A stretch of 64,000 nt of DNA from Pedobacter mendelii. Its GTDB lineage: Bacteria; Bacteroidota; Bacteroidia; Sphingobacteriales; Sphingobacteriaceae. The DNA lies in assembly GCF_014635725.1 (NCBI RefSeq), contig NZ_BMDJ01000012.1, forward strand, positions 62,001 to 126,000, in the 5' to 3' direction. Below the pieces are notes generated by a model. It was given only the letters and a program-made list of their open reading frames with translations, searched no databases and was not told where the DNA came from. How positions within the stretch are numbered: position 1 is the first letter of the stretch; each line of letters starts with the position of its first letter. Shown piece after piece: positions 15,960 to 28,865 of this stretch. Made by a program: the position numbers and the translations under genes.

Positions 15960-16219
15960 TTTTTTAGCCATGAAGATATCTAGCAACATTTGAGCTTATA
16001 TTTTCTAATATGCCTTATATGGTTGATTTTTTTTGAAAACGATAGTAAAGTAATCCTTTGGGTAAAGCAGTCCTGCTAACCATTTCAATCTTTTTGGCAA
16101 TGTCAGTGTGAGCTTAATGAAAATCTGCAACAAAAAGTATTTTCATTTTTATCAGGTTTAATTAAGTCATTACAGTAATTCTTTTGTAGATAAAACTTAG
16201 ATTTGAAAAAAAGACATCA
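15960..16219. other. Intergenic region without recognisable features
   Basis: This AT-rich sequence lies between the ahcY terminator and the small secreted protein gene. No ORF, repeat shared with the window, or clear TAnnTTTG promoter is seen. Confidence 0.5.
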
Positions 16220-22821: not shown

Positions 22822-25698
22822 ATGAGCTTAAACATCCACTACAAAGAAGAGTTTCAGAATCGACATATTGCGCCAAATCAAGAAGATACTGAAGCAATGT
22901 TGCATACCGTTGGCGTAAATTCGATTGATGAATTGATTGACCAAACTGTTCCGGCAACAATTAGATTGAAGCAGCCGTTGAATTTGCCTGCTGCAAAATC
23001 GGAAACTGAATATCTTAGTGCTTTAAAACAAACTTCGTTGTTAAATAAAGTTTTTAAAAGCTTTATCGGGCAAGGTTATTACGATACGATTACTCCAGGT
23101 GTAATTTTGCGTAATGTTTTCGAAAATCCGGGATGGTACACTCAATATACGCCTTACCAGGCAGAAATTGCCCAAGGTCGTTTGCAGGCATTATTAAATT
23201 TCCAAACGATGGTTATCGATTTAACTGGAATGGAAATTGCCAATGCATCACTTTTAGATGAAGGTACAGCTGCGGCTGAGGCAATGTTTATGCAATATAG
23301 TTTGCGTAAAAACCAGGCTGCGAAAAAGTACTTCGTTTCAGAATTGGTTTTTCCACAAACGATAGATATTTTAAAAACCCGTGCTAACCCTTACAGCATT
23401 GAACTGGTCATCGGAAGTCATTTGGATTTCATTGCTACTGAAGATTTCTTCGGGGCGATTGTTCAATATCCGGCAGGAAATGGCGAGGTTTTCGATTATA
23501 AAAATTTTGCTTCAGAATTACACAATCAAAATATTAAATTAACAGTTGCAGCTGATATTTTAAGTCTAACATTATTAACTCCCCCAGGTGAATGGGGTGC
23601 TGATGTTGTTGTAGGTACTACTCAACGTTTTGGTATCCCTATGGGATTTGGTGGTCCTCATGCTGCATTTTTTGCTACTAAAGAAGAATACAAACGTAAT
23701 ATTCCAGGTCGTATTATCGGTGTAACCATTGATAGCCATGGTGATTATGCTTTACGTATGGCTTTGCAAACCCGCGAGCAACACATCCGTAGAGATAAAG
23801 CAACATCAAACATTTGTACTGCTCAAGCATTATTGGCCATTATGGCTGGTTTTTATGCTGCTTATCATGGTCCGAAAGGTTTAAAAGCCATTGCAGAACG
23901 TACGCATGGTTTGGCCATCAGCTTAGCATCAACCATTAAAAATTTAGGTTATGAGCAATTAAGTTCTGTTTATTTCGATACCATTCGTTTCGAATTAGGC
24001 GATTTAAAAGCTGGTATTCAATCGGGTTGTATTGATAACGAAATCAATTTAAATTATTCGGGTAGTGTAGTCAGCATTTCTGTTGATGAAACCACCACCT
24101 TTGAAGACGTTGCTTTAATTGCTAAAATATTTGCTAAAGTTAAAGCTATAGCCGCTGATGAAGTTGAGGTTGTAGAAAATGTAGAAACTGTTATTCCGAC
24201 TGAGTTACAACGTACTTCTGCCTATTTAGCACATCCGGTTTTCAATTCGCACCATTCTGAACATGAAATGTTGCGATATATAAAATCGTTAGAGGGGAAA
24301 GATTTATCGCTTTGCCATTCGATGATTGCTTTAGGTAGCTGCACTATGAAATTAAATGCAACTGCAGAAATGATTCCGGTTACCTGGTCTCATTTCGGTC
24401 GCATCCATCCATTTGCTCCTGCCGACCAAGTATTAGGTTATTATTCCGTTTTTAACGAATTGGATAAGTGGTTAAGCGAAATTACAGGTTTTGCGGCCAT
24501 GAGTTTGCAACCAAATGCAGGTGCTCAGGGCGAATACGCTGGTTTAATGGTTATCCGTGCTTATCACCACGATAGAGGCGATTTCCATCGTAACGTAGCT
24601 TTAATTCCTGCATCAGCTCATGGTACAAATCCTGCATCTGCAGCAATGGCCGATATGAAAATTGTTGTCGTAAAATCTTTAGAAAACGGCAATATAGATG
24701 TTGAAGATTTAAAAGCAAAAGCAGAATTACATAAAGAAAACTTATCCTGTTTGATGGTAACTTATCCATCAACTCACGGGGTATTCGAAGAAAGTATTAT
24801 CGAAATTTGCGAAACCATTCACGCTAATGGCGGCCAAGTTTACATGGATGGTGCGAACATGAATGCACAAGTTGGTTTAACCAGCCCGGCTAATATTGGC
24901 GCCGATGTTTGCCATTTAAATTTGCACAAAACTTTCTGTATTCCTCACGGTGGTGGTGGTCCTGGTATGGGTCCAATCGGCGTGGCTAAACATTTGGTTC
25001 CTTATCTTCCTGGTCACACCGTGGTTGATATCGATAAAGGAAAATCCATTTCTGCGGTTTCTTCTGCTCCCTGGGGTTCTGCATCAATTTTGATAATTTC
25101 TCATGCTTACATCGCTATGATGGGGGCAGAGGGATTAACCAATGCAACCAAATACGCAATTTTAAATGCAAACTACATGAAAGCCCGTTTGGAGCATCAC
25201 TATCCGGTGTTGTATTCTGGTGCTCAGGGACGTTGTGCACACGAAATGATTTTAGATTGCCGCTCATTCAAAGCTTTTGGAATCGAAGTTACGGATATCG
25301 CTAAGCGTTTAATGGATTATGGTTTCCATGCACCTACGGTTTCATTCCCGGTTGCAGGAACTTTAATGGTTGAGCCTACAGAATCTGAACCTAAACATGA
25401 GTTAGATCGTTTCTGTGATGCCTTAATCGCGATTAAAAAAGAAGTAGATGAAGTAGAAAACGGAACTTTCGATAAGATAGACAACCCATTAAAAAATGCA
25501 CCTCATACAGTTTCAGTAATTACAGCAAACGATTGGGAGCATGCATATAGCCGACAAACAGCAGCTTTTCCATTGCCTTATGTGTTAGAGCGTAAGTTCT
25601 GGCCATCAGTTGGTCGTGTTAACGATAGCCACGGCGATAGGTCACTGATTTGTGCTTGTCCGCCGGTAGAAAGTTATTTGGAAGAAATAGTACCTTAG
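22822..25698 (+). CDS. gcvP: Glycine dehydrogenase (decarboxylating), P-protein
   Basis: At 958 residues this is the full-length, single-chain P-protein, with both the alpha- and beta-like halves fused. The N-terminal motif [14 protein letters not shown] is typical. The PLP lysine is K703 in [20 protein letters not shown]. Other signatures are [56 protein letters not shown] and [16 protein letters not shown]. It decarboxylates glycine and passes the aminomethyl group to lipoyl-GcvH. The T, H and L proteins are not in the window, as is common in Bacteroidota. Confidence 0.98.
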
Positions 25699-25770: not shown

Positions 25771-25823
25771 TTCTGGCAGTTGGCATTGTTTTTGCATTTA
25801 TCATCCAATAAAATATATTGATA

Positions 25824-26471
25824 ATGAAAAAGATAATTTGCCTGATTGCATTGAGTGCAAGTTGTTATACAGCTCTAGCACAGTATGTAGAGCCTGAAAA
25901 AGCAGAAAAAGATGAGATAAAAAGAAAAGCTAGTGAAGTTATAACTTACCCTTCAATAAAATTCGATTCATTACAAACTAAAAATGCATTGATAGAAGGA
26001 AAGGGAAAAATAACTGGGGTTGCTTTTACACGTCCGAGGAGTACTTATGGGGCAAATAATCCCCCAAGAAAAATTTTAGCGACAAAAGTTAAAATTCGAC
26101 TCTATCCTGTAACACCTTATTTTGAAGAATATTATAAGCTATGGAAAGACAAAAGCAAAAATAATCCCAAGAAAAATAAATATGTATTAATGGCTGATAA
26201 AGCTTTACGTTTACGATTAGAAGCAATAACCAATAGTTCAGGCGAATTTACTTTTCCCAATATGAAGCCAGGTAAATATTATTTATGTACAAACGTTGAA
26301 TATTCTCTTGATTACAGTGTTAAAGAATATGCAGGAAGTGGTTATGGTACCTACGGAACAATAGATTATTATAAGTCAGAAAATTATGGCAAAGGCTACA
26401 ATGATTTTTTAGAGGGGTTTGTTGAGGTAAACGCAGATGGTCAAACTGCGATGATAAATTTGAAAAATTAA
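25824..26471 (+). CDS. Secreted protein with carboxypeptidase-regulatory-like domain
   Basis: From the ATG at 25824 the protein has 215 residues. A signal peptide ends in ALAQ. The mature protein contains KITGVAFTRP and the later ITNSSGEFTFPNMKPGKYYLC, the typical F-P-x-x-x-G-x-Y turn of carboxypeptidase-regulatory-like (transthyretin-like) beta-sandwich domains. Several Tyr and Gly follow (YAGSGYGTYGTIDYY). Function is unknown; such domains usually mediate protein or glycan contacts at the outer membrane. A TTG two codons upstream exists, but the ATG is preferred. A strong hairpin follows, itself duplicated 128 bp further on. Confidence 0.75.
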   Translation: MKKIICLIALSASCYTALAQYVEPEKAEKDEIKRKASEVITYPSIKFDSLQTKNALIEGKGKITGVAFTRPRSTYGANNPPRKILATKVKIRLYPVTPYFEEYYKLWKDKSKNNPKKNKYVLMADKALRLRLEAITNSSGEFTFPNMKPGKYYLCTNVEYSLDYSVKEYAGSGYGTYGTIDYYKSENYGKGYNDFLEGFVEVNADGQTAMINLKN

Positions 26472-26509
26472 AATTTATAGAAAAATATTAAATCAATAAA
26501 AATTAATTT

Positions 26510-26556
26510 ATCTGCAAGTTTTGTAAATTCATTTTCATAAAGCTTGCAGATTTTTT
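26510..26556 (+). terminator. Terminator hairpin, copy 1
   Basis: ATCTGCAAG (26510-26518) pairs with CTTGCAGAT (26543-26551) and is followed by six Ts. Confidence 0.75.
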
Positions 26557-26572
26557 ATTTAAGCGGTTTACT

Positions 26573-26601
26573 ATCCCCTCTGGAGGTGGCAAGGGGGAGG
26601 A
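26573..26601. repeat. CCCCTCTGGAGG repeat, copy 1
   Basis: A G/C-rich block with inverted symmetry, beginning CCCCTCTGGAGG and ending GGGGGAGGAG. It recurs at 26869-26896. Confidence 0.75.
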
Positions 26602-26637
26602 GTTTAAACATTAGGTTGGTGTCTTCACGAATCAATC

Positions 26638-26687
26638 ATCTGCAAGTTCTATGAATTCATTTTTATAGAACTTGCAGATTTTTTTTT
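26638..26687 (+). repeat. Terminator hairpin, copy 2 (duplicate of 26510-26556)
   Basis: A perfect 15-bp stem (26638-26652 with 26665-26679), starting ATCTGCAAGTTCTAT, is followed by nine Ts. It is the same hairpin as copy 1 with a better stem, so the element was duplicated. Confidence 0.8.
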
Positions 26688-26816
26688 GGAAATGAATGTT
26701 CTGTTTTTTATCGGGAATCGCAGTCCCGCCATTCACTATAATTCCCGAAGAAAACTCGGGGCTGCCGCTACTGTCAGGTTTAAAAACAAAGGTTGGTTAA
26801 TAGCCTAAACATTAAC
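26684..26816. repeat. Intergenic repeat B, copy 1
   Basis: The segment starts near GGAAATGAATGTTC, contains TATCGGGA, CAGTCC, CTCGGGGCTG and CTGTCAGGTTTAAAAACAA, and ends near AATAGCCTAAAC. Those blocks recur in the same order at 26955-27084. Confidence 0.75.
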
Positions 26817-26868
26817 TATACATTGCAATACTGATCTTTTCTTGCAAATCGCTATCTGCACCATGTAT

Positions 26869-26896
26869 CCCCCTCTGGAGGGGGCAGGGGGAGGAT
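26869..26896. repeat. CCCCTCTGGAGG repeat, copy 2
   Basis: The block CCCCCTCTGGAGGGGGCAGG continues to 26896. It is a close copy of 26573-26601. Confidence 0.75.
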
Positions 26897-26954
26897 TTTA
26901 TTTAATATTCTTTTAAATATTATACCTCAAAGATTTTAGAATTTAAGCTTACAG

Positions 26955-27084
26955 TTTTTGGAAATGAACGTTCAGTATTTTATCGGGATCTGCAGTCCTG
27001 CCATTCGCTGTAGCCCTCATTGAAAAAATTCGGGGCTGTCCGCTTCTGTCAGGTTTAAAAACAACGGTAATAGCCTAAACTATA
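26955..27084. repeat. Intergenic repeat B, copy 2
   Basis: It has the same order of blocks as copy 1 (GGAAATGAACGTTC, TATCGGGATC, CAGTCCTGCCATTCG, TTCGGGGCTG, CTGTCAGGTTTAAAAACAA, AATAGCCTAAAC), with small indels. Confidence 0.75.
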
Positions 27085-27115
27085 ACAATTAATTATTGAT
27101 AGGAAAATCAGAGCC

Positions 27116-27475
27116 TTATTTAAACTCTCCAAAATGCCATAAATTGCCAGCTGGGTCATGCAAGAAACACTCATTACCCCAATCTTCATATTTGATTGGC
27201 GATAGTTTAACCTTATATTTAGTTGTTAAATCCAAAGCCGATAATTCATTGTAAAATCGATTCACATCATCAACTTCCATAAATATCATGGTATTTTCAA
27301 TCCAATCTTTTACATAGGCATCTTGCAAATAGAAAGCCATATTCCTAGTTTTAAAAACCGACATTTGGTTGCCTAAGGTAACTTCTTCAAAACCTAAGTC
27401 ACGGTAGAAATTTCTTGATGTTTCAAAGTCTTTAGCGCCTATAAAAGGCCGTATTGATTTTGCGTTGTGGTTCAT
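27116..27475 (-). CDS. VOC (glyoxalase/bleomycin-resistance) superfamily protein
   Basis: The 119-residue protein carries one VOC module pair: IRPFIGAKDFETSRNFYRDLG at the start, then NMAFYLQD, NTMIFMEVDDVNRFY, and the end FLHDPAGNLWHFGEF, the usual D-P-x-G-N motif. Members include dioxygenases, glyoxalases and antibiotic-binding proteins. The metal ligands and substrate cannot be read with confidence here. It is a single gene facing the repeat nest at its 3' end. Confidence 0.82.
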   Translation of the reverse strand: MNHNAKSIRPFIGAKDFETSRNFYRDLGFEEVTLGNQMSVFKTRNMAFYLQDAYVKDWIENTMIFMEVDDVNRFYNELSALDLTTKYKVKLSPIKYEDWGNECFLHDPAGNLWHFGEFK

Positions 27476-27813
27476 TCTTGACTAAATTATACAACTAAGA
27501 TAGGCGGTTTTTTTTGCATCTTAAAACTCGAAATAGCAGCACAACATTAATTTTTTAAACGGGATTGAAATGGTATCATTTTTTGTTACTAATTTTAAAG
27601 TTTTCAATAATGTCGTTAACAAAAAATATTAAATGTAAAGCCCGACTACCGACAATTTAATTTGTGAATTTGCTTTCCAGAAACTCCGTAACAAATTTAT
27701 ATTTAAATACATTAAACCTTATTGCTATAAACACAGTCAATTAGATTTAAACAAAATCCGACTATTTTTGAAAAAGTTAACATAGGTCAATAAGAGAATG
27801 TCGGTTGTTAATC
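27476..27813. other. Divergent intergenic region before the YceI gene
   Basis: AT-rich, with no ORF. It contains an extra TATTTTTG at 27763-27770, which could be a second, distal promoter for the YceI gene. Confidence 0.4.
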
Positions 27814-28489: not shown

Positions 28490-28865
28490 TATATATTTTT
28501 TATCATGTAAGAAATTTGAGCTTCATGTAAGCTTACATTATCTTAAATCTTATATGGTTATAATTTTTTAAACTTTAACATTTTCGAAAAGCAGTTGCAG
28601 TATAATTATGCAAGGCTGTTCCTGCACTCCGCTAAATCTTTTAGCCGCTCATTCCTTACCCTCAAAAAAAGCAAAGCTAAAAGGATACCACTGCGTTCGG
28701 GTTTAGGAATCGACAAAACTGCAACAAACTCAGATTGAAAATTTGTCTAACCCCTTAGCGCTTTATATATTTCCGTGAGCTAAAGCTAGACGGCAATGAA
28801 ATTAAAATACGATTGATTTTTCTGCTTTGGTCTTTAGTCTTCCATCTTTGGTCTTTCCCTTTTAC
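28490..28865. other. Intergenic region between convergent genes
   Basis: No ORF is seen. A GC-richer block (about 28612-28735) contains GCTAAATCTTTTAGC, which can fold on itself. A pyrimidine-rich run of CTTTGGTCTT-like words (28818-28858) resembles short stretches at 3350-3375 and 46085-46110. Nothing else is recognisable. Confidence 0.4.

Follow-up and report, generated by a model that had tools for sequence, protein, structure and literature searches.

Among the closest described counterparts of the repeats discussed here is the Flavo-1 RNA motif (Rfam RF01705), which the part of Weinberg et al. 2010 used here presents as a candidate RNA without a function (PMC2864571). Flavo-1 hits in F. 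psychrophilum were found in sense or antisense orientation with no sense preference, and many lay outside transcribed regions, according to the portion of PMC9723704 drawn on. The portions of PMC2864571, PMC9723704 and PMC9029176 that were covered mention neither a function of Flavo-1 nor repeats in its loops, and the literature listings searched showed no paper tying Flavo-1 to REP repeats. These repeats, tagged by CGTC or GTAG, are described in the relevant part of PMC3733652 as short dispersed intergenic palindromes that also occur in Bacteroidetes and often lie in convergent or tandem gaps.

The window analysed here is the whole 64-kb stretch of DNA, taken from a 4.51-Mb genome; among named relatives, the nearest that was found is Pedobacter jejuensis, with a VOC protein 97% identical. 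Within it, a gap of about 580 bp holds a nest of repeats, and the gap is convergent because the 217-aa gene on one side is on the plus strand and the glyoxalase-family gene on the other is on the minus strand. The features are as follows.

16065-16163, minus strand: Flavo-1 match of 42.4 bits, just above the cut-off of 42.
22822-25698: gcvP, upstream of the 217-aa gene.
25818-26471, plus strand: 217-aa gene between gcvP and the old gcvP terminator, with sub-threshold similarity to CarboxypepD_reg.
26510-26559, plus strand: hairpin 1, terminator-like with a T-run, downstream of the 217-aa gene; a relative of the conserved gcvP terminator.
26572-26606, plus strand: CC block 1 (CCCCTCTGGAGGTGGCAAGGGGGAGG), a diverged copy of a dispersed G-rich repeat.
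26638-26687, plus strand: hairpin 2, a terminator hairpin that keeps its older leader GGTTNGTGTCTYCACGAA on the upstream side and appears orthologous to the gcvP terminator of relatives.
26683-26820, minus strand: repeat B1, Flavo-1-like, core 26718-26785; about 26800-26820 is a 3' flank common with B2.
26839-27061, no strand assigned: composite of CC block 2, an AT spacer and B2, with a paralogous segment at G000:C1:214513-214743.
26866-26900, plus strand: CC block 2 (CCCCCTCTGGAGGGGGCAGGGGGAGG), a dispersed G-rich repeat.
26928-26958, plus strand: weak candidate for the remnant of a third terminator hairpin, ahead of B2.
26955-27100, minus strand: repeat B2, Flavo-1-like, core 26990-27060; 3' flank TAATAGCCTAAAC common with B1.
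27116-27475, minus strand: convergent glyoxalase/VOC-family gene that bounds the gap (PF00903, E 2.1e-06).
27553-27651, plus strand: Flavo-1 match over the cut-off, on one side of a yceI-like gene.
28614-28708, minus strand: Flavo-1 match over the cut-off, on the other side of the yceI-like gene.

The first-pass annotation of this DNA had reported two hairpins, two CCCCTCTGGAGG blocks (here CC blocks) and two copies of repeat B, and all of these are present in the order that it gave, with each pair far above chance. In local alignments the hairpin pair scored 65 against a shuffled maximum of 32, the CC pair 48 against 26 and the repeat B pair 138 against 30 (1000 dinucleotide shuffles each). 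Since all three pairs beat every shuffle, the concern that the similarity might lie below the level of random AT-rich sequence does not apply. The 701-base region 26450-27150 contains 24 repeated 11-mers (mean 0.34 and maximum 7 in 500 shuffles), and no 701-base segment that does not overlap the nest has more than 7 of them, as counted over the whole 64 kb in steps of 100.

Hairpins 1 and 2 are 86% identical over 50 nt and fold at -17.8 kcal/mol (z -6.6 versus shuffles) and -24.7 kcal/mol (z -8.5), respectively. Both combine a stable hairpin with a T-run, and they look like intrinsic terminators, which would stop transcription arriving from the gcvP side. A terminator scan lists hairpin 2 (18-bp stem and T-run) and not hairpin 1, though the scan adds little because it gave 2 sites versus 1.7 in shuffles. 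Like rho-independent terminators in general, they are perfect or near-perfect hairpins with a T-run downstream of a gene; they differ in standing here as two copies 128 bp apart and, in Pedobacter sp. Leaf170, as about five copies in tandem. A possible third hairpin before B2 was not accepted, as its score of 26 was reached by 1.5% of 1706 control windows and is not secure.

gcvP is present in 35 of 36 genus genomes (own genome included), and its 3' flanks were compared at 26 loci, made up of the window, 19 chosen genus genomes and 6 of 7 named Pedobacter loci. The hairpin pattern matches downstream of gcvP at 16 of the 26, the window included, and fails at 10; a shorter form of the hairpin is seen in the P. 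aquatilis sequence downstream of gcvP. The upstream leader of hairpin 2 also occurs in P. aquatilis, Leaf170 and genomes G001 and G020, and the sequence downstream of hairpin 1 (ATTTAAGC) in G003. In Leaf170 the terminator unit stands in tandem with a period of 247 and 4.6 copies (L087 5392-6518, locus coordinates). As the terminator module is multiplied both there and in the window, it has been duplicated in at least two lineages. The 217-aa gene that separates gcvP from the hairpins matches CarboxypepD_reg at E 0.0011 and 19.7 bits, below the cut-off of 32.3. It has no tblastn match at the other 25 of the 26 gcvP loci, and a relative in genome G024 (47% over 216 aa) is found at a locus where gcvP has no match. 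Since the gene was found only at the window's own locus among the 26, it was most likely inserted between gcvP and the gcvP terminator.

Repeat B is the part of the nest that resembles Flavo-1. B1 (26683-26820) and B2 (26955-27089) align at 79% over 141 columns, and both match model positions 1-76 of RF01705 on the minus strand, which is its full length, with the same bulged stem and few broken pairs in the alignments. B1 scores 31.1 bits and B2 34.4 bits, and because both values are below the gathering score of 42 the copies are called Flavo-1-like here and not members of the Rfam family. An apparent ortholog of B at the same place in P. aquatilis reaches 47.0 bits, above the cut-off. As single strands, B1 and B2 fold no better than their own shuffles. 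The repeated unit of about 115-125 bp is also longer than the Rfam model and extends to an ATTTCC/TTTTCC end that recurs; the two B copies terminate in GGAAATGA, the counterpart on the other strand of the TTTTCC/TTTCCA end that lies about 40 nt past many Flavo-1 matches (both by eye). Beyond the element, the 3' flank TAATAGCCTAAAC is found in B1, B2 and, slightly changed, both P. jejuensis copies. Apart from those of P. jejuensis, none of the further family copies examined carries it at its 3' end; 3 further loci of 24 have a near match to it somewhere, not at the end of the element in the flanks examined. Matches of the region to microRNA, RsaJ and other Rfam models are far below their own cut-offs and were taken as chance.

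The two CC blocks are 71% identical ungapped and 91% identical over 32 columns with a gap. The exact 12-mer of the CC block occurs three times in the genome, always on the forward strand, and a 30-base pattern, allowed 3 mismatches at most, found CC in 13 of 40 genus genomes (reversed control pattern, 0 matches), although CC block 1 itself is too diverged for these search patterns. A DNA search with B1 gave 13 genome matches at E <=0.01, including the two window copies. Genome-wide searches for repeat B and the CCCCTC block, which the first-pass annotation had proposed, thus located both families dispersed beyond the gap. CC block 2 matches Whalefall-1 RNA (RF01762) over its full length, but at 23.3 bits versus a cut-off of 37; what matches is a short hairpin rich in G, possibly by chance, and the CC block was not assigned to that family. 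The gaps of relatives hold (C)GTCATTGCGAGG and TTCAGGGTGACG repeats, which are similar to CGTC-type REPs by our own reading of the tag; in contrast, neither the CGTC nor the GTAG tag is plain in the CC block, and no linked Y1 transposase was found.

CC block 2 and B2 are not independent. The alignment of the composite with its paralog in the same genome runs on across the spacer, at 77%. With CC block 2 and B2 in one composite segment, the earlier description of three unrelated elements, each present twice within 580 bp, is right about the doubling and too strong about the lack of relationship. In P. jejuensis the order in the gap is hairpin-B1-CC-B2 with CC in tandem (period 230, 4.3 copies, 5 CC matches), and the CC unit there also holds the palindromes GCTGAATTTATTTCAGC and CCTGAAATAAATTCAGGGTGACG. 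The hairpin is accompanied by a single B in P. aquatilis and Pedobacter sp. Leaf194 and by none in P. sandarakinus and Leaf250. Hairpin, B and CC units thus recur in the gap on the gcvP side in differing mixes, and B1 adjoins the terminator in P. jejuensis, P. aquatilis and Leaf194 as it does in the window. Among the B copies of the window (w) and P. jejuensis (j), identities are 84% for B1w-B1j, 87% for B1w-B2j, 86% for B1w-B2w and 91% for both B2w-B2j and B1j-B2j. These values for four copies do not give a clean duplication tree, and conversion between B copies has perhaps blurred the duplication history.

Taken with the observed homology of the parts, their order, their conserved position in relatives and the tandem arrays in two of those relatives, these results make it likely that the 580-bp gap is a 3'-to-3' deposit in which a duplicated gcvP terminator stands together with a Flavo-1-like resident and the composite of CC and B2. 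The comparison of the sequences suggests the following order of events. The core of the gap would be the old intrinsic gcvP terminator, directly followed by the Flavo-1-like B1. The common ancestor with P. jejuensis would then have gained B2 and the G-rich CC as one composite segment, either by segmental duplication or by recombination between dispersed copies. The lineage of the window would itself have acquired the 217-aa gene, hairpin 1 and the second CC block on the upstream side; the simplest route is a tandem duplication of the terminator module together with insertion of the gene. The duplications themselves may have come from slippage or recombination between direct repeats, and the parts would need only transcription, replication and recombination, with no machinery of their own. 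The earlier interpretation is partly supported. The serial duplications that had been proposed agree with the data, as the terminator is doubled here and arrayed in Leaf170, the CC unit is arrayed in P. jejuensis and B1 and B2 have a common 3' flank. Most of the nest is ordinary, a terminator and dispersed repeats subject to tandem copying and settling of repeats, and it is a well-resolved case of terminators and dispersed repeats piling up and duplicating at a convergent gene junction.

The first-pass annotation had also offered a preferred landing site for several families; the gap would then attract independent mobile families (Flavo-1-like, CC and CGTC-type REPs), some of them inserting twice. 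The gaps of related species do hold such a mixture, with GTCATTGCGAGG repeats near the terminator in G021, G025, P. aquatilis, Leaf170 and Leaf250, Flavo-1-like elements with or without other loop repeats, and CC in G021. However, B1 and B2 have a common flank outside the element, CC block 2 and B2 are a single segment that recurs elsewhere, and the hairpin is the terminator of a gene and not a mobile family. That dispersed families have accumulated in the gap is supported by the mix there, which differs between relatives; a site that draws in independent families in this way is unlikely.

Flavo-1 also occurs beyond the nest. In the own genome there are at least 72 Flavo-1 matches at E <=1, at least 37 of them over the cut-off (150 of 1024 candidates scored); B1 and B2 are not among the matches listed. 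Of 14 control genomes, 5 have a match at E <=1 and none has one over the cut-off. One segment of the own genome (G000:C3:240394-240990) holds a likely tandem array of three equally oriented matches with a spacing of about 250 bp, of which two pass the cut-off. Flavo-1 at the two positions that flank yceI recurs in several related species, with loops that differ between species.

An array under selection, in which duplicated terminators and Flavo-1 RNAs act as regulatory RNA at the 3' ends of gcvP and the convergent gene, would fit some of these features. A Flavo-1-like element recurs downstream of gcvP, at 12 of 26 loci by pattern and at G011 and G033 by eye, so that a divergent Flavo-1-like subtype lies beside a conserved housekeeping gene in several species. 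Of 70 copies, 67, 68 and 66 form the first, second and third of the outermost stem pairs, respectively (47.4, 33.9 and 60.4 on average after shuffling), and the first two of the three clearly covary, though covariation leans towards structure because the 70 copies were found by covariance model. In tandem gene gaps, mostly sense copies were counted, 34 of 44 with 10 antisense (p 0.0004), or 16 to 3 in the own genome and 18 to 7 in four other genomes (p 0.04); these p-values are optimistic because the copies were best-scoring or hand-picked from a list and orthologs between genomes were retained. For this count 4 of the 70 copies were left out and genes were plain ORFs of at least 90 aa. On the other side, the remaining 12 of 26 gcvP loci are without a Flavo-1-like element, the element runs antisense to gcvP, the Flavo-1 matches of B1 and B2 are weak, and copy number and order vary even among close species; the published F. 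psychrophilum hits, in the part of PMC9723704 noted above, also run counter to a sense preference. A selected array is thus very unlikely to account for the nest, and the gcvP-side site is nevertheless a concrete place to ask about the role of Flavo-1.

Several of the Flavo-1-like elements on the gcvP side hold another repeat in the apical loop. A GTCATTGCGAGG-type repeat lies in the loop in G009, G001, G020, G011 and G004, and a TCATGCTGAGG-type repeat in G027, G030 and G033. Among 15 gcvP-side elements found by pattern, a set that contains the B2 copies of both the window and P. jejuensis and an additional, more distant one of Leaf194, but not the elements of G011 and G033, mean identity was 75% for arms, a value raised because the arms were located by patterns inside them, 44% for loops and 38% for shuffled loops. 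When loop labels were placed on the gcvP tree, with a diverged Flavo-1-like candidate in G032 counted as none, 5 groups took 9 changes, versus a mean of 12.8 for shuffled labels, of which 0 of 200 sets gave 9 or fewer. That the labels are more clustered than when shuffled speaks for inheritance of many loops; the least possible number of changes is 4, so single origins are not sufficient to explain the loop types. A clean exchange of loops between the sister genomes G020 and G030 was weakened as an example, as their elements are only partly alike outside the differing loop types (right arm 22/22 and about 14 nt after it identical, left arm 43/57, outer flanks different), and recombination of a larger piece is therefore possible. 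In G020 and G011 (L177 and L180), TAATATAAATCGCGGGTGCG-type short repeats stand in a row after the gcvP-side Flavo-1-like element.

One loop repeat is also found outside Flavo-1. With 3 mismatches allowed, TCTTCGACAAGCTCAGACTGACA has 26 copies in the genome (control 0), and 3 of these lie inside Flavo-1 matches (L190, L201 and L208). No Flavo-1 was found over the other 23 copies (20 of the 26 loci scanned with Rfam, the others by eye), and the repeat therefore exists independently of Flavo-1. At least one of five motifs, which are unrelated REP-like repeats, is in the loop of 23 of 79 Flavo-1 copies. Motifs R1-R4 were counted 20 times in loops versus 2 in 100-nt flanks, R5 is not specific (4 versus 7), and R6-R8 gave 0 versus 4; all eight were chosen after viewing loops or flanks, and some copies are orthologs of each other. 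A tentative reading, which we regard as possible and no stronger, is that Flavo-1 would be the frame of a composite repeat, with two covarying, sense-selected transcribed arms and an apical loop that acts as an exchange site for unrelated REP-like palindromes, one site taking up different repeats in each species. If this is true, nests such as the present one would grow by tandem duplication and loop exchange. Loop-borne repeats would also account for some of the variation in length that the terminal loop of Flavo-1 shows. Within the limits given with the counts above, this wider pattern of loop-borne repeats and sense preference is the part most worth following.

That CC, Flavo-1 or both are non-autonomous elements moved by Y1 (REP-associated) transposases is highly improbable, since their distribution largely follows kinship and neither repeat stands at the 31 Y1 genes looked at. 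A Y1_Tnp match was present in all of the at least 20 Flavo-1-positive genomes among 36 and in 3 of 16 negatives (at most 96 candidates scored per genome), but this co-occurrence is confounded by kinship because the genomes with gcvP at 92% or above make up 16 of the 20 positives. At 31 Y1_Tnp loci (20 + 11, part of a longer match list) no Flavo-1 exceeded the cut-off, and no CC block, copies of which should flank the Y1_Tnp gene if CC were the REP of a RAYT, lay in any of them, using a pattern that detected CC in 34 of 34 positive controls. Two exceptions were seen: the sole Flavo-1 match in the 31 loci, below the cut-off with 37.3 bits, at L137 (1202-1285, minus strand), where about 215 bp separate it from the Y1 match, and a 15-nt match to a B-like motif at L139, about 1 kb from the Y1 match. 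Some of the Y1 genes are adjoined by their own palindromes, which do not resemble CC and B (by eye). At L050 (G000:C6:56480-56818) a Y1 transposase-like gene with one internal TAA adjoins palindromic repeats around CTTACGAAGTC, and at L051 (G000:C23:1420-1662) Y1 transposase-like frames in two similar pieces adjoin CACACGCGGCACGCGTGCGCCAGCGA-type repeats.
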